Below, piece by piece: positions 5,131 to 10,710 of a stretch of 64,000 nucleotides of DNA. Source of the stretch: Citrifermentans bemidjiense Bem (GTDB lineage Bacteria > Desulfobacterota > Desulfuromonadia > Geobacterales > Geobacteraceae); contig NC_011146.1 of NCBI RefSeq assembly GCF_000020725.1, forward strand, positions 4,096,001-4,160,000, written 5' to 3'. Made by a program: the position numbers and the translations under genes. The notes beneath the pieces are model-generated. The model saw nothing but the letters and a program-made list of their open reading frames with translations. It ran no database searches and had not been told where the DNA came from. Every line of letters starts with the position of its first letter. The first letter of the stretch is position 1.

Positions 5131-5809
5131 TCTCCTTTTTGTCACCCCTCAGTCAGCGGAAGCAGTTGCTCTACTTGATCTACCCCCGGAGGCCGTTCAG
5201 CAAGTGCATTGGAACAGCCTCCCGGGGGCTCTTCCTTGACAGACAGTGTCTCAATTCCCTCAAAATGGTCTTCCCGTTCACTGAATATCCCCATCGTGCC
5301 GGAAATTCCTGACATTTGCACTAGACGTCCCCATCTCCGGACAATCCACCGTCGTGTTTCAACTAAATGCTCTCATCTCTGGACAATACGTCTTTACGTT
5401 TTGATTAAACATCCCATCTCCCGACAATTCGTCATCGCCTTTCAACTAAACGTCCCCATCTCCCGACAATTCGTCATCGCGTTTCAGCTAAACGTCCCCA
5501 TATCCCGACAATTCGTCATCGCGTTTCAGCTAAACGTCCCCATCTCCCGACAATTCGTCATCGCCTTTCAACTAAACGTCCCCATCTCCCGACAATTCGT
5601 CATCGTGTTTCAACCATGTATCCTCAGGGGCCAGGTTGGGGGGCTATGAAATATTCTGTGTAAAAAACCTGGGTATTCCCAGTTGAGAGAAAAAGCCCCA
5701 CCCTATTGACCGTAGGCTATGAATTCATTCCAATACCGGTGGATTTGTGCTAGTTTGCGGTACAATTCGTAGCGGCGTCCCCTATTTTGGTAGATGCGCA
5801 AGGAGTCCG
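5131..5809. other. Long intergenic region with hairpin and tandem repeats
   Basis: About 680 bp without a supported gene. It contains an imperfect long hairpin (CCCCCGGAGGC at 5183-5193 with GCCTCCCGGGGG at 5217-5228), the 42-bp tandem array (5326-5618) and a small CTGGG/CCCAG hairpin near 5668-5681. The frame that crosses the array is open only because 42 is a multiple of three. A segment at 5760-5786 (ACAATTCGT followed by CGTCCCC) looks like one more decayed repeat unit. The promoter of the 5.8-10.7 kb operon must lie in the last 190 bp. Confidence 0.6.
5326..5618. repeat. Tandem direct repeat, 42-bp period, seven units
   Basis: Seven contiguous units begin at 5326, 5368, 5410, 5451, 5493, 5535 and 5577. 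All are 42 bp except the third, which has lost one base (41 bp). The core is CCCATCTCCCGACAATTCG. Units 4-6 are nearly identical, unit 7 keeps the core but its tail has diverged, and units 1 and 2 are decayed. A still more decayed unit of about 40 bp precedes them near 5286. There are no unique spacers, so it is not a CRISPR. The GAC-AATTC-GTC part forms a short imperfect dyad. Confidence 0.9.
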
Positions 5810-6061
5810 ATGGATCTATTCGAGGAACTCAAAGCTGCTGCGGCCGGCAGAAACGAAGAGGGTGATTTTCCGGACTGGCTTCTCGCGGGGGTGCTGGAGG
5901 TCGCGAATTCTCCCGATTTGCATAGCGACCACCTTGGACTGGTGGAGTTGCTTCTTGCGCAGGTTCGCGATTACGACGCCTATGCCGGCGCCGGCTGCTT
6001 TGATGCGTCAGTGACTGCGGGTACAATTGAACGCACTCTTAGGCTGATGGGCCAGCGGTAG
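5810..6061 (+). CDS. Small acidic hypothetical protein, first gene of the NosL operon
   Basis: The ATG at 5810 has AAGGAG 4 nt upstream and gives an 83-residue acidic, soluble protein (MDLFEELKAAAAG...). A longer in-frame start at 5747 lacks a ribosome-binding site and would add a stretch of unconvincing composition. No domain recognised. It ends 25 bp before the TlpA-like gene, so it is probably the first gene of the operon running to 10710, but a functional link is only inferred from position. Confidence 0.6.
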   Translation: MDLFEELKAAAAGRNEEGDFPDWLLAGVLEVANSPDLHSDHLGLVELLLAQVRDYDAYAGAGCFDASVTAGTIERTLRLMGQR

Positions 6062-6086
6062 CAAAAGGAATCAGGAGAATCACCAG

Positions 6087-6581
6087 ATGGCGCGACTGAC
6101 CTGCTGCTTCTCCCTGCTCTTTGCCATCACTGCGGCGATCTTTTCTTCGGGGTGCGACAGGAAGATGGTGAAGGTAGGCGAGCAAGCGCCGCCGGTCTCG
6201 GGAAGGGACATTCGCGGCAACCAGGTGTCGCCTGAGACCTTGAAAGGCAAGGTCGTTGTCCTTTACTTCTGGACTAATTCATGCTGCGGCGAAACTCTGA
6301 AAGAGGACCTGGAGCCGGTTTATCGCAGGAACAAGGACAGGGGACTGGCGGTCATCGCGGTAAACGAGTTCGACGAGGAAAAAGATTTAGTTTCTATAGC
6401 GGCAACTAACCGGCTCTCAGTTCCGATAATGGTGGATGCCGGCTCTACATTGGCGAAAGACTTCACGGTCTTTGCCTTCCCTACAGCGTTCATACTGGAT
6501 AGAAACGGCACCCTAAGACAGAAGGTCCTTGGACAGATCTCGGCAGCCAAGCTAGAGCAGCTAATCCAGCAAGTCAATTAG
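6087..6581 (+). CDS. TlpA/ResA-like thioredoxin-fold lipoprotein with CCGE active site
   Basis: A 164-residue exported protein with an N-terminal hydrophobic segment and lipobox-like SSGC (Cys23), so probably membrane-anchored facing the periplasm. The thioredoxin/AhpC-TSA fold is shown by VGEQAPPVSGRDIRG, LKGKVVVLYFW and the cis-Pro region FAFPTAFILDRNG. The usual CxxC is replaced by SCCGE: Cys66 is in the nucleophile position, the second Cys is adjacent (Cys67) and the resolving position is Glu. Such a site may hold metal or act as a one-Cys peroxidase or reductase. SD is AGGAGA. Adjacent nosL-like genes suggest it reduces or loads their Cys pairs. Confidence 0.85.
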   Translation: MARLTCCFSLLFAITAAIFSSGCDRKMVKVGEQAPPVSGRDIRGNQVSPETLKGKVVVLYFWTNSCCGETLKEDLEPVYRRNKDRGLAVIAVNEFDEEKDLVSIAATNRLSVPIMVDAGSTLAKDFTVFAFPTAFILDRNGTLRQKVLGQISAAKLEQLIQQVN

Positions 6582-6594
6582 CATGAGGACGCAC

Positions 6595-7113
6595 ATGAGA
6601 GTAGTGAGAGAAGTAATTATCACTTGCCTGGTCATTGCCGCAATTACCGGGTTTGCTCTGGCTGCGCCCCCTGATCTCGATAAATACCGGACCTGCAACT
6701 ACTGCGGCATGGACAGGTCGAAATATGGCCACAGCAGAATGCTCATAGAATACGACGACGGCACCTCCGTGGCAGCCTGCAGCCTTCACTGTGCCGCTGT
6801 TGATCTTGCAGTCAACATTGACCGGACAGCATCACACATCTACGTAGGCGATTACGGCAGCAGGAAACTCATCGATGCGGAAACCGCCTCCTGGGTCATC
6901 GGAGGCAGCCGGCCGGGAGTGATGTCCGCTAATGCCAAGTGGGCTTTCGAGACAAAAGAAGGGGCTGCCGGATTTATAAAGGAGCATGGCGGGACGCTTA
7001 GCACATTCGATGACTCCGTCAGCGCTGCTTATCTCGACATGTACAAAGACACGAAGGCGATCAGGGAACGGCACAAAGCAAAGCATCGGGGCAGCAGCGG
7101 GGGGCCCAGATGA
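6595..7113 (+). CDS. NosL-like periplasmic metal-binding protein 1
   Basis: Belongs to the NosL family, periplasmic Cu(I)-binding proteins known for delivering copper to nitrous oxide reductase. The ATG at 6595 has GAGGA 5 nt upstream and is preferred over the ATG at 6583. The 172-residue product has a signal sequence (VIITCLVIAAITGFALA), then CNYCGM (Cys34, Cys37, Met39) and a second pair CSLHC (Cys62, Cys66). The Cys/Met set fits soft-metal binding. No lipobox is obvious, unlike classical NosL lipoproteins. It overlaps the next gene by 4 nt (ATGA). No nosZ is in the window. Confidence 0.85.
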   Translation: MRVVREVIITCLVIAAITGFALAAPPDLDKYRTCNYCGMDRSKYGHSRMLIEYDDGTSVAACSLHCAAVDLAVNIDRTASHIYVGDYGSRKLIDAETASWVIGGSRPGVMSANAKWAFETKEGAAGFIKEHGGTLSTFDDSVSAAYLDMYKDTKAIRERHKAKHRGSSGGPR

Positions 7114-7598
7114 TCCGCCGCATCCTCAACCATTTCTCAGTGTATATCACTCCTTTTTTACTCGCTTCGCTGGGGATGGCTGCCAATATAAAGCCGGATA
7201 AGGTTGGGCCGAAAGACAGGTGCCCGGTCTGTGGGATGTTCGTAGCCAGATATCTCGACTTTGCCGCCCAAGTCAAATTCGAAGACGGCCAAGTGTTTCA
7301 TTTCGACGGCGCAAAGGATATGTTTACCTTCTACCTGGACATCCCTCGTTATGCTCCCGGCAGGCAGATGTCCGACGTCACCTACATCTTTGTCACCAAC
7401 TATTACGAGCTCAACCTAATCGACGGGAAAAAGGCCCTGTACGTCGCAGGCAGCGACGTCTATGGCCCGATGGGACACGAACTGATACCCTTTGCCCACC
7501 GGCCGGAAGCCGAAGACTTTCTGAAGGACCATGAGGGAAAGCATCTGTTCCGGTTTCAGGATGTGACGCCGGCGGCACTCTCCAAGCTTGAGCGATGA
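7110..7598 (+). CDS. NosL-like periplasmic metal-binding protein 2
   Basis: Second NosL paralogue, 162 residues, starting inside the ATGA overlap with NosL-like 1. An N-terminal signal segment (about 8-25) precedes CPVCGMFV (Cys38, Cys41, Met43), the family's metal site. FEDGQVFHFDGAKDMFTFY and YVAGSDVYGPMGHELIPF match NosL core regions. It lacks the extra CxxxC of paralogue 1, so the two may pass metal between them or serve different partners. Known role of the family is copper delivery; the partner here is unknown. Confidence 0.9.
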   Translation: MIRRILNHFSVYITPFLLASLGMAANIKPDKVGPKDRCPVCGMFVARYLDFAAQVKFEDGQVFHFDGAKDMFTFYLDIPRYAPGRQMSDVTYIFVTNYYELNLIDGKKALYVAGSDVYGPMGHELIPFAHRPEAEDFLKDHEGKHLFRFQDVTPAALSKLER

Positions 7599-7900
7599 CT
7601 CAACGAAAGTCCGCACTTTTTGCCTGGGTGGTTGCCTTGCTTTCCTTTACCCTGGCAGGACTGCTCATCCACGCGCAGCATAAAGTCGGTTCCGCGTCCC
7701 CCGTTATTGCCGCCAACGCGATGCTGGTCAGGCAGTTGCAACTGACCGACCTCTGTGTATTTACCGAGGCCAGCTACACCAGAAACCCCGCCGTTGCAGG
7801 CGCAGCGCCTGCTTTCCAGGACTCCCCCCTGTCATTTGAGCACTTCCCCAGCGGGGCACTCGTGCAGCCCCACCCCGCAGCGGCCAGGAACGTCCCGTGA
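7595..7900 (+). CDS. Single-TM periplasmic-facing small protein of the NosL operon
   Basis: A 101-residue protein starting in an ATGA overlap with the preceding NosL. One N-terminal membrane segment (about 8-25) is followed by a periplasmic tail with LTDLCVFTEASYTRNP and FQDSPLSFEHFPSGAL. I do not recognise a named domain, but the tail is ordered and its composition is protein-like. The translational overlaps on both sides (GTGA with the permease) suggest obligate co-expression; it may be a subunit or substrate-presenting partner of the ABC exporter. Confidence 0.7.
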   Translation: MTQRKSALFAWVVALLSFTLAGLLIHAQHKVGSASPVIAANAMLVRQLQLTDLCVFTEASYTRNPAVAGAAPAFQDSPLSFEHFPSGALVQPHPAAARNVP

Positions 7901-9021
7901 TTGAACGCCACCGCTACATCCTCGACTTCACTTTGGCCTCCTTGCTCCGCAGGAAGGGGAAGAACTCCGCCCTTCTCGTTGTCTACATCCTTGTAGTGTT
8001 CGTAGCGGCTTCAGTTCTGTTCTTCACCCATGCCTTACAGTACGAGGCGTCGCTGCTGCTCGAAGACGCGCCCGATATCGTGGTCCAAAACACCCTGACT
8101 GGACGCCAGCATCCTGTCCCGGTCAAGTGGCGCCGGTCCATCGGCGAGATCCGCGGCGTCGCCTCTGTAGCACCAAGGCTCTGGGGGTACCAATACGATA
8201 AAGCATTTGCTGCGAACTACACCCTCCTGGTACCTGTTAAAGACGAGCCGCCGTCAGGAAGTATCGATATCGGCAGCGCCATCTCCCGCACCCGCAACGC
8301 CTATCCCGGCGATATCATCTCCCTCCCCGGAAGCGATGGCCGCCCCCATGCCTTTACCATCCGGCAGACGCTCTCCTCGGAATCGCAACTCCTGACCGGG
8401 GACCTCATGGTTCTTTCGGAGAAGGACTTCAGGGAGCTTTCCGGTATCCCCAAAGATCAGGCGACAGATCTCGTGCTGCGGGTCCCGAACGCCCGGGAGC
8501 AGCGGACCGTAGCGGCGAAGATCACCCGGCTTTACCCTGAGGCGCGCCCCATCTTGCGCGAGGAGATGCGACGGACTTATGACGCCGTTTATGGCTGGCG
8601 TTCGTCCCTTCTGCTGGTTGTCTTCAGCGGAGCAGGTTTGGCTTTCTTTATCTTTGCCTGGGACAAGGCTACGGGCATCTCTGCCGAGGAAAGAAAAGAA
8701 ATCGGCATCCTGAAGGCTATCGGGTGGGAAACTTCGGACATACTGTTGATGAAATTCTGGGAGGGAATCGTCATTTCGCTTTGTTCTTTCCTGGCGGGAA
8801 GCATCCTTGCCTACTTCCATGTCTTTGCGTCTTCCTCTGCACTATTTCTTCCCGTCCTTAAAGGATGGTCGACCCTCTATCCCACCTTCAGGCTTCAGCC
8901 GTCCATCGATTACTGGCAGCTTGCGGTCCTCTTCTTCTTGACGGTGATTCCCTATACCATCGCGACCATTATCCCTTTCTGGCGCGCGGCAACGATCGAT
9001 CCCGATGTGGCGATGAGGTGA
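7897..9021 (+). CDS. FtsX/MacB-type ABC transporter permease
   Basis: A 374-residue permease with the FtsX-family plan: one N-terminal membrane helix (about 22-45), a large extracytoplasmic domain (about 46-225), then three C-terminal helices (near 228-250, 283-308 and 340-365). ERKEIGILKAIGW, ahead of the C-terminal helices, is the typical coupling region. The GTG start overlaps the previous stop. Such exporters (MacB, LolCE) move lipoproteins, peptides or drive periplasmic work rather than import. The ATPase follows 7 bp later. Substrate unknown; context suggests metalloprotein assembly or export. Confidence 0.9.
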   Translation: MIERHRYILDFTLASLLRRKGKNSALLVVYILVVFVAASVLFFTHALQYEASLLLEDAPDIVVQNTLTGRQHPVPVKWRRSIGEIRGVASVAPRLWGYQYDKAFAANYTLLVPVKDEPPSGSIDIGSAISRTRNAYPGDIISLPGSDGRPHAFTIRQTLSSESQLLTGDLMVLSEKDFRELSGIPKDQATDLVLRVPNAREQRTVAAKITRLYPEARPILREEMRRTYDAVYGWRSSLLLVVFSGAGLAFFIFAWDKATGISAEERKEIGILKAIGWETSDILLMKFWEGIVISLCSFLAGSILAYFHVFASSSALFLPVLKGWSTLYPTFRLQPSIDYWQLAVLFFLTVIPYTIATIIPFWRAATIDPDVAMR

Positions 9022-9028
9022 ACGCAGT

Positions 9029-9715
9029 ATGATCTCCGTTCAGAACGTAGTGAAGATCTTCAACGGCGGGCGACCGAACGAGTTGCGCGCGGTCCGGGAG
9101 GTTTCCCTGGAGATCGGGTTGGACCAGGCCACGGCCCTGGTGGGACCGAGCGGATCGGGAAAGACGACGCTCCTCTCTTTGATTGGATGCATGGCCCGCC
9201 CCACATCCGGCCGCATCTTCGTCAAGGAAGAGGAGGTCACCAGCCTCCCTGAGCGGTTTCTTGCCGGGATCCGAAGATCGACCTTCGGGTTCGTCTTTCA
9301 GCGGCACAATCTGATAAAGGGAATTTCCGTGCTGGAGAACGTCATGGCGCCCGCTTACCCCGAGGGGGAACCTTTCCCGCAGCTTCGGCAAAGGGCCCTC
9401 GATACCTTGGAGCGGTTGAACCTGAAGCAGCGTGCGGACGCTAAGGTGGAGTGGCTTTCCGGAGGGGAGGCGCAGAGGGTGGCAATCGCTCGCGCCATGA
9501 TTAACCGTCCAGCCGTCATGATAGCCGATGAGCCGACGGCGCACCTCGATACGAAGTTGTCCTACGACTTCATGTCGCTTATGAAGGAAGTGAAAGACGC
9601 CGGGACCGCGGTTATCCTTGCCAGCCACGACCCCATCGTCTATGGCTGCGACCTTATCGGCCGGGTAGTGGAGTTGCGTGACGGGCGGGTAGTGACCGAG
9701 AGGAACCCGAGGTGA
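9029..9715 (+). CDS. LolD/MacB-type ABC transporter ATPase
   Basis: A 228-residue cytoplasmic ATPase pairing with the FtsX-like permease just upstream. It has Walker A GPSGSGKTT (about 39-47), Q-loop region FGFVFQRHNL, signature LSGGEAQRVAIARA, Walker B VMIADEPTAHLD and the H-loop SHD. The Gln-to-Glu change in the signature (LSGGE) is normal for the LolD/MacB group. It ends in a GTGA overlap with the following membrane protein, so it is translated with it. Confidence 0.95.
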   Translation: MISVQNVVKIFNGGRPNELRAVREVSLEIGLDQATALVGPSGSGKTTLLSLIGCMARPTSGRIFVKEEEVTSLPERFLAGIRRSTFGFVFQRHNLIKGISVLENVMAPAYPEGEPFPQLRQRALDTLERLNLKQRADAKVEWLSGGEAQRVAIARAMINRPAVMIADEPTAHLDTKLSYDFMSLMKEVKDAGTAVILASHDPIVYGCDLIGRVVELRDGRVVTERNPR

Positions 9716-10710
9716 CACTCTCTCCGGGAATAGTCGCCCTGCTTGTATCTTCTCTGCTGGTCAGCATGATGTTGCTTATCGCCGCCAAGGAAGGAGCGTC
9801 GATTATCCGGCACTGGAACATGACCAGCGGAAGCGAGCTTCAACTTGCCCTGGAGCGCCGGACCTATCTCATCTCCACCATCGTCGCTATCTTCCTGCCG
9901 CTGCAACTTTTCTCCCTGTTTCTGTTTATCAACACCGTGGACGGCATCAGTCACCTTTTCACTGGCGCCATGTGCGCAGCGGGTACGCTGAAGGTGAACC
10001 GGTTCGGATATCCCACCTTGTTCCTGAAGATGGTGACTTTCCTGTTGGCAGGGATATGGCTCATACTGAACCATGCAGACAATGAAGGGCGAGACTACCC
10101 TCTAATTCGGGTGAAGTACTGGTTGCTGTTGTTAATAGTCCCTGTCTTGCTCATTGAAACCATACTGCAAGCCTCTTTTTTCTGGCGGCTCCGCCCGGAC
10201 GTCATCACCTCGTGCTGCGGCGCTCTCTTTAGCAAAGGTTCGGGAACCCTGGCATCCGACATCGTTGCCGCTCCAGTGGTTCCCGTGGCAGTAGCTTTCT
10301 TTGGGATAATAGCCGCAGCAATTGCATCTGGCGGGTTATTTCTCAAGACCAAGCGCGGTGCTGCTTCGTTCGGCTGCATAAGCGGGATAGCCTTCATCAC
10401 CGCGATCATTGCGGTTATTTCTTTCATCTCCGTATATATCTACGAGCTCCCCTCGCACCATTGCCCGTTCTGTTTGCTCCATCGGGAGTATCACTTCATC
10501 GGATACCTGCTGTACGCGCTTCTTTTCTCTGGAGTTGTAGCCGGTGCCGGTGTGGGCGTGCTTCACCGATTCAAAAAGGTAGCGAGCATTAAAGGCCCGC
10601 TACTGCAGATGCAGCAAAAGCTGACGGTTGTCGCCCTGGCATCGTTCGCGACAACGGCACTGATCGTCATCTGGAAGATGGCCTCTTCGACGTTGAGGCT
10701 GTTTACTTAG
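9712..10710 (+). CDS. Polytopic membrane protein with CPFC motif, last gene of the NosL operon
   Basis: A 332-residue protein with about eight hydrophobic segments, starting GTG in overlap with the ATPase. Near the C-terminus HHCPFCLLHREYHFIGY resembles the CxxC-bearing loop-helix of DsbB/VKOR-type thiol oxidoreductases, but overall similarity to those families is not evident to me. Other Cys groups (MCAAG, SCCGAL, GCISG) could be redox-active or bind metal. In a cluster with a thioredoxin-like lipoprotein and two CxxCGM proteins, a role in thiol or metal redox across the membrane is plausible but inferred. Confidence 0.75.
   Translation: MTLSPGIVALLVSSLLVSMMLLIAAKEGASIIRHWNMTSGSELQLALERRTYLISTIVAIFLPLQLFSLFLFINTVDGISHLFTGAMCAAGTLKVNRFGYPTLFLKMVTFLLAGIWLILNHADNEGRDYPLIRVKYWLLLLIVPVLLIETILQASFFWRLRPDVITSCCGALFSKGSGTLASDIVAAPVVPVAVAFFGIIAAAIASGGLFLKTKRGAASFGCISGIAFITAIIAVISFISVYIYELPSHHCPFCLLHREYHFIGYLLYALLFSGVVAGAGVGVLHRFKKVASIKGPLLQMQQKLTVVALASFATTALIVIWKMASSTLRLFT

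Follow-up and report, generated by a model that had tools for sequence, protein, structure and literature searches.

A conserved gene unit joining NosL to an FtsX-type ABC system in Citrifermentans bemidjiense, with a very likely link to copper

Gene organization and conservation of the operon

The window, that is, the whole 64,000-nucleotide stretch analysed here (Citrifermentans bemidjiense Bem, contig NC_011146.1, positions 4,096,001 to 4,160,000; the genome is a single contig of 4,615,150 bases), carries on its + strand eight tightly packed open reading frames (ORFs) between positions 5810 and 10710, all of which were found where the initial annotation of this DNA had placed them. Five kinds of genes from this operon form a portable core, a conserved envelope unit: NosL, a protein with one transmembrane (TM) helix (tm1), an FtsX-type permease, a LolD-type ATPase, and a membrane protein with the motif HHCPFC (CPFC protein). 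The neighbours of this core indicate that the metal concerned is very likely copper.

The operon begins with a small acidic protein of the GSU3529 family (5810-6061; NF045727, 97 bits against a cut-off of 44) and a protein with the TlpA/AhpC-TSA fold (6087-6581). These are followed by NosL1 (6583-7113), which has a CxxCGM motif and a second, CxxxC pair (C66 and C70), NosL2 (7110-7598), the NosL gene of the core, with CxxCGM and M121, tm1 (7595-7900), the permease (7897-9021), the ATPase of the LolD/FtsE/MacB type (9029-9715), and the CPFC protein (9712-10710) with eight predicted TM helices. Between NosL1 and CPFC, the five junctions were as tight as described before, with four 4-base ATGA or GTGA overlaps and one 7-base gap, and the two junctions preceding NosL1 are gaps of 25 and 1 bases.

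Conservation was assessed in 277 genomes (82 genera) of the class holding the window and in a phylum sample of 395 genomes (246 genera); loci and genomes of this analysis are given L- and G-numbers, respectively. CPFC recurred in 125 of the class genomes and in 40 of the 82 genera, a few of the matches being fragments (e.g. 34 residues in G167), so that the gene set is not peculiar to this genome. The profile search of the phylum sample matched 62 of 395 genomes and 46 of 246 genera (12 of these 62 genomes are in the class, and some matches are weak), and a scan of genome contigs added relatives in Geomonas paludis (L033) and in a contig labelled as a Nitrospirae metagenome-assembled genome (L034). 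A search of plasmids for CPFC gave no match. Of the 62 class loci, 50 had all five core genes within 6.5 kilobases (kb) on one strand, as did 15 of 27 loci outside the class. The individual counts in the 62 class loci were 53 for NosL, 59 each for tm1 and FtsX, and 58 for the ATPase; missing core genes are partly due to cut contigs (e.g. L063 and L078), and divergent clusters without tm1 or NosL occurred outside the class. NosL was present in 134 of the 277 class genomes and co-occurred with CPFC in 120, leaving 5 genomes with CPFC only and 14 with NosL only.

The initial annotation had treated all eight genes as one unit; the TlpA-like and small proteins proved to be accessories outside the five-gene core. 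Only 13 of the 62 class loci had a TlpA gene upstream of CPFC at a distance of up to 6.5 kb. The thioredoxin fold itself was supported by an AhpC/TSA-ResA-like match in Pfam/NCBIfam, but the window protein has SCCGE in place of the CxxC active site of TlpA/ResA, and 12 of 17 TlpA-like members, including this one, carry SCCG[ED] or CGC at that place. It also has a lipobox-like SSGC, recognized by eye. The small gene was matched by profile in 3 of 63 loci, a set comprising 60 class neighbourhoods of CPFC matches hand-picked to spread over genera, L033, L034, and the window; of these three matches, those in the window and L036 adjoin the cluster and the one in L037 lies kilobases away.

Directly upstream of the operon is a tandem array of seven 42-base units (5320-5614, no strand). 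The flanking genes tested, all on the - strand (S13 carboxypeptidase, M23 peptidase, PDZ/aspartyl protease, and DUF2461), belonged to no copper family. Two other arrangements were observed: locus L158 (G551) holds two cluster copies within 20 kb, with five CPFC matches in the genome, some of them fragments, and at G167:C13:19386-19892 a NosL gene is followed at once by the 34-residue CPFC remnant, which resembles a decayed or deleted cluster.

Conserved features of the core proteins

Both proteins with CxxCGM that had been taken for NosL passed the PF05573 model (55 and 103.8 bits, cut-off 24), and they are the only two NosL proteins of the genome at E-values up to 0.001. According to the accessible text of PMC6530538, the strictly conserved residues of NosL are the Cys and Met of a CXM motif and one further Met, the motif taking the form CXXCXM in clade II. 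NosL1 and NosL2 each have the CXM residues together with a further conserved Met. In NosL1, C41, M43, M114, C66, and C70 were kept in 28 of 28 members; in NosL2, C38, C41, M43, and M121 were kept in 53 of 53, and in the alignment with the 7og7 chain, a solved NosL, C41, M43, and M121 correspond to C48, M50, and M131. Copper binding is predicted for NosL1. The NosL of nos operons carries a lipobox (PMC7558416, available part); the NosL2 of the window lacks one, since no Cys precedes its motif. Among the NosL proteins of the loci, a lipobox was seen in 1 of 81 with a strict pattern, which also missed the SSGC of the window TlpA-like protein, and in 8 of 80 with a permissive one, start codons being uncertain. 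A 451-amino-acid ORF in L189 (13999-15354) joins a NosL domain to a Phenol_MetA_deg domain.

The permease exceeded the cut-off of PF02687 (36.4 against 25.5 bits) and weakly resembled LolF/LolC (best E 0.049); MacB_PCD was additionally detected in its L189 homologue. Among the NCBIfam models the ATPase was nearest to LolD (TIGR02211, E 7.5e-53), yet below the equivalog cut-off, and its nearest solved relatives were a MacB-like ABC (ATP-binding cassette) ATPase (5xu1) and MacB. With an FtsX domain over the cut-off and a LolD-like ATPase, the pair belongs to the FtsX/MacB/LolC-type ABC systems. The window tm1 matched no Pfam or NCBIfam family at E up to 1 and no Protein Data Bank (PDB) entry; its family has a conserved tail, TDLxxFTEAxYTRxP...FQDxP..EHFPxG, in which TD, AxYTR, QxxP, and HxPxG were invariant across 31 aligned members (57 full-length members listed).

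For the CPFC protein, hydropathy averaged over 39 aligned members (61 full-length members listed) gave eight helices. C88, C168, C169, H249, H250, and C251 were invariant (39/39), and all six fall in predicted periplasmic loops by the positive-charge rule, which places the K/R-rich loops inside. The second Cys of HHCPFC, C254, was Cys in 22 of 39 members and Asp in 17 of 39; therefore, the protein has no obligate CxxC redox pair, and the HHCPFC sequence is more plausibly a periplasm-facing Cys/His site than a CxxC redox motif. This also weakens CPFC as a candidate obligate CxxC redox protein. W35, Q44, and E48, likewise invariant, belong to the first of the predicted cytoplasmic loops, which could contact the ATPase. 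The window CPFC matched no Pfam or NCBIfam family at E up to 1, and the CPFC profile gave no match to PDB sequences. When the 39 members were compared with Pfam, only weak matches appeared: the lowest E, 0.002, was reached in a single member, and the most frequent family, ADD_DNMT3, matched 11 members with E no better than 0.019. We read these as chance matches.

Linkage to nitrous oxide reductase and to copper genes

Nitrous oxide reductase was sought with the NosZ model TIGR04246 (cut-off 625 bits; the search did not extend to the clade I model TIGR04244), which was chosen because a search with PF18764 gave nothing and its controls were likewise unmatched. The absence of nosZ, noted before for the window, extended to the entire genome: no protein exceeded this cut-off, and the single match, at 33 bits, came from a cytochrome oxidase subunit II, namely its CuA domain; this subunit is fused to cytochrome c, and subunit III-like and CyoE-like ORFs were recognized by eye beside it. 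Accordingly, nitrous oxide respiration was rejected as the role of the operon in this genome. NosD and an ABC-2 NosY were absent among the eight operon genes; nosD and nosR were not searched genome-wide. NosZ over the cut-off was found in 1 of the 277 class genomes and in 2 of 50 CPFC genomes outside the class, a search that took 51 genomes with G159 included, and so in only 3 of 175 CPFC genomes. The cluster is thus not bound to a complete nos operon. Partial NosZ matches of about 148 bits, below the cut-off, were obtained in G336 and G370 outside the class. As NosL occurs in 134 class genomes and NosZ over the cut-off in one, NosL in most of the carriers in the class probably serves a client other than NosZ.

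The label "orphan" given to the operon nevertheless holds only in part, because most clusters are without NosZ but the core lies directly behind NosZ-NosDFLY in two genomes. In G325 (L189), a single strand encodes a Rieske protein, cytochrome b, cytochrome c, NosZ, NosD, NosF, NosL, NosY, and a TlpA with CxxC, and the run continues on the same strand with a further NosL, tm1, FtsX, ATPase, and CPFC, with small genes in between (Pfam was run on ten of these genes; NosF and NosY were named by family and position). G498 (L190) has the L189 gene order, as judged by profile and by eye, with a NosZ of 799 bits. Its congener G628 (L191) has no NosZ match, and here one strand carries CusB-CusA-NosL1-NosL2-tm1-FtsX-ATPase-CPFC with a multicopper oxidase match nearby. 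These nos-linked and Cus-linked versions indicate that the module can move from one copper context to another; no other observation speaks as strongly for copper.

Neighbours of the 63 loci were compared with 40 control windows from 36 of the same genomes. SCO was found near 22 of 63 loci and 0 of 40 controls (Fisher test, 4e-6), and a fusion of cytochrome c with a periplasmic-binding protein (PBP) near 15 of 63 and 0 of 40, respectively (Fisher test, 4e-4). Of the 277 class genomes, 83 had the fusion, and CPFC was present in 70 of these 83 (odds ratio 13.6, uncorrected for kinship), and 25 of 27 hand-picked fusion-CPFC pairs on the same contig lay within 25 kb of each other. CuA-type matches were obtained in 92 of the 125 genomes with CPFC and in 74 of the 152 without it, also uncorrected for kinship. 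PAS/histidine-kinase genes were dismissed as partners, being not specific to the cluster (15/63 against 11/40). In addition, relatives of a TonB-dependent copper receptor adjoin NosL1 in L056, L065, and L182 and NosL-CPFC in L170; TIGR01778 was their best family at 247-263 bits, below its cut-off of 472, and within the fetched stretches they were seen in 2 of 63 loci and 0 of 40 controls. Outside the class, the fetched stretches contained CusA and CusB at 12 of 26 loci and multicopper oxidase at 3 of 26. CusA/CusB stood directly upstream in the same direction in several of them (L157, L160, L176, and L191), and all six CusA proteins tested were of the heavy-metal type over the cut-off.

Several side observations were made at these loci. 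The fusion of cytochrome c to a Peripla_BP_6 domain (L058, 6016-7713, and relatives) is often near SCO. A Cys-rich protein of about 190 amino acids recurs with the copper TonB-receptor relative and NosL1 (L182, 10025-14153; L056, 2885-7456; L065, 13573-16825), joined in L182 and L056 by a TonB-like protein recognized by eye, and this set resembles a copper-uptake module in its own right. In L085 (8779-9273), L058 (5458-5841), and L191 (2299-2673), small proteins near the cluster carry several CxCGxxCxC-like motifs; the one tested had no Pfam match.

A candidate copper hand-over mechanism and its alternatives

The initial annotation had proposed an envelope machine that loads, reduces, or exports a soft metal. 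A conserved envelope unit was borne out, and its neighbours point to copper; of the possible roles, delivery is more likely than export. We give about even weight to the reading in which the five core genes encode an inner-membrane machine that hands copper over, driven by ATP, from NosL through CPFC to a periplasmic recipient. NosL1 and NosL2 would hold periplasmic Cu(I) with CxxCGM and the distant Met, and tm1 would contribute its conserved His/acidic tail. The FtsX-type permease and the LolD-type ATPase would assemble with CPFC and act on it as a membrane partner with six periplasm-facing Cys/His residues, and ATP hydrolysis would drive copper from NosL via CPFC to the recipient. ABC systems of the FtsX/LolD/MacB type pass ATP-driven motion to the periplasm and are not known to pump ions through a channel. 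The recipients may be NosDFY/NosZ in the two nos-linked genomes, SCO and the cytochrome c-PBP fusion in many members of the class, and perhaps the CuA oxidase, a possible copper client, in C. bemidjiense itself.

This mechanism is proposed by analogy with NosL and NosDFY, the known ABC-assisted system of copper delivery to nitrous oxide reductase (PMC7558416 and PMC13068155, accessible parts). Both sets combine a NosL Cu(I) chaperone with an envelope ABC system, and both stand in one gene run in L189 and L190. However, the permease here is FtsX-type (PF02687) whereas NosY is ABC-2, no NosD is among the eight genes, the core adds CPFC and tm1, few of these NosL proteins show a lipobox-like pattern, and 172 of 175 CPFC genomes lack a NosZ above the cut-off. 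The occurrence of NosL without NosZ has a precedent, because the available text of PMC13068155 describes a NosDFYL locus without NosZ in Parageobacillus, for which its authors propose an alternative copper recipient. That locus likewise pairs NosL with an ABC system, but has NosDFY in place of the FtsX/LolD-type pair with CPFC and tm1.

Some observations weigh against the hand-over mechanism. No client is common to all carriers. In C. bemidjiense, the cytochrome c-PBP gene was not matched by the query that matched the 83 other genomes, and SCO gave only a weak partial match (24.5 bits, cut-off 22.8, positions 2-66 of 134). NosL was missing within 6.5 kb upstream in 9 of 62 class loci, some of them on cut contigs. 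The profiles used to find neighbours had cluster loci as their seeds, which biases the comparison in favour of the cluster set. Multicopper oxidase (5/63 against 0/40, p 0.15) was not significant, and CusA and CusB were not enriched in the class (5/63 each against 6/40 and 7/40), these control windows excluding them as partners there. The excess of CusA/CusB outside the class over the class controls (p 0.01) is indicative only, the controls not being matched. Finally, an AlphaFold2 model of CPFC from three sequences was poor (pLDDT, the predicted local distance difference test score, 58.5), and its best Foldseek E-value was 0.47.

One alternative, which we regard as rather unlikely, is that the system supplies thiol reductant: the FtsX-type ABC would move reducing power outward and, without handling copper itself, act through a relay of CPFC and TlpA that keeps the NosL cysteines and copper reduced. 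The Fet system of Campylobacter (FetMP-FetABCDEF, for iron) has like parts, namely an 8-TM Cys protein (FetA), the ABC permeases and ATPase FetBCD, the thioredoxin-fold proteins FetEF, and a periplasmic metal-binder, and a relay of reductant has been proposed for it (PMC10783030, accessible part). In the clusters of L159 and L164, a second FtsX and ATPase lie nearby and TlpA keeps CxxC, as judged by eye. The resemblance concerns the kinds of parts in the two systems, and it is limited by NosL standing here where Fet has FetP, by the absence of an iron permease FetM from the window operon, and by neighbours related to copper and not iron. The DUF2318/FtrD-like domain of FetA (PF10080) was absent from the Pfam matches (E up to 1) of the 39 CPFC members; FetA-like DUF2318 proteins are encoded in 38 of 39 relatives searched and elsewhere in the C. 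bemidjiense genome, and are therefore no sign of the core unit. The Asp at C254 in 17 CPFC members, the scarcity of TlpA at the class loci, and the lack of CxxC in most TlpA-like members also argue against this relay.

Copper export or detoxification, in which Cu(I) would be stripped from the inner membrane or NosL and fed to a CusA-type pump or a multicopper oxidase, would account for the CusA/CusB and multicopper oxidase genes of the loci outside the class; we consider it unlikely, as the window's own class lacks the CusA/CusB enrichment and as linkage to nos, SCO, and the copper-uptake receptor relatives points to supply. Those same receptor relatives beside NosL1 or CPFC would fit an import role, with CPFC as an inner-membrane permease for copper delivered by NosL and an OprC-like receptor, but they are few and below the family cut-off, and no FtsX-type ABC system is known to import ions; such a role is very unlikely. 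Lipoprotein release or another LolCDE-like envelope task, to which the NosL link would be incidental, is disfavoured as highly improbable. The ATPase and permease families do resemble LolCDE, MacB, and FtsEX, the mechanotransmission systems, in sequence, with LolD the nearest model for the ATPase, 5xu1 and MacB its solved relatives, and LolF/LolC weakly similar to the permease. In contrast to those systems, the core has a single permease gene and dedicated CPFC, tm1, and NosL partners, and the co-occurrence with NosL in 120 of 125 CPFC genomes and the recurring copper neighbours argue against an incidental link.

No description of the NosL-tm1-FtsX-ATPase-CPFC unit was found in the literature searched, which left subscription papers mostly outside and is no proof of novelty, and nothing on the window operon was found in that on Geobacter bemidjiensis. 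The copper-handling unit is real and conserved, and apparently undescribed, joining the known parts NosL and an FtsX-type ABC system to two unclassified membrane families. A more tentative extension, which we think possible but doubtful, is that, alongside NosDFY, it represents a second class of machines that use ATP to insert copper into proteins, this one of the FtsX type. Within the phylum and outside it, this class would load cuproproteins other than NosZ (e.g. CuA oxidases where the genome has no full SCO), and CPFC would be a new kind of membrane protein for copper transfer. With two protein families that Pfam does not match, the core constitutes a short, testable gene set for envelope copper handling in these bacteria. 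Because nitrous oxide reductase activity can report on the module, its nos-linked versions allow a direct functional test.

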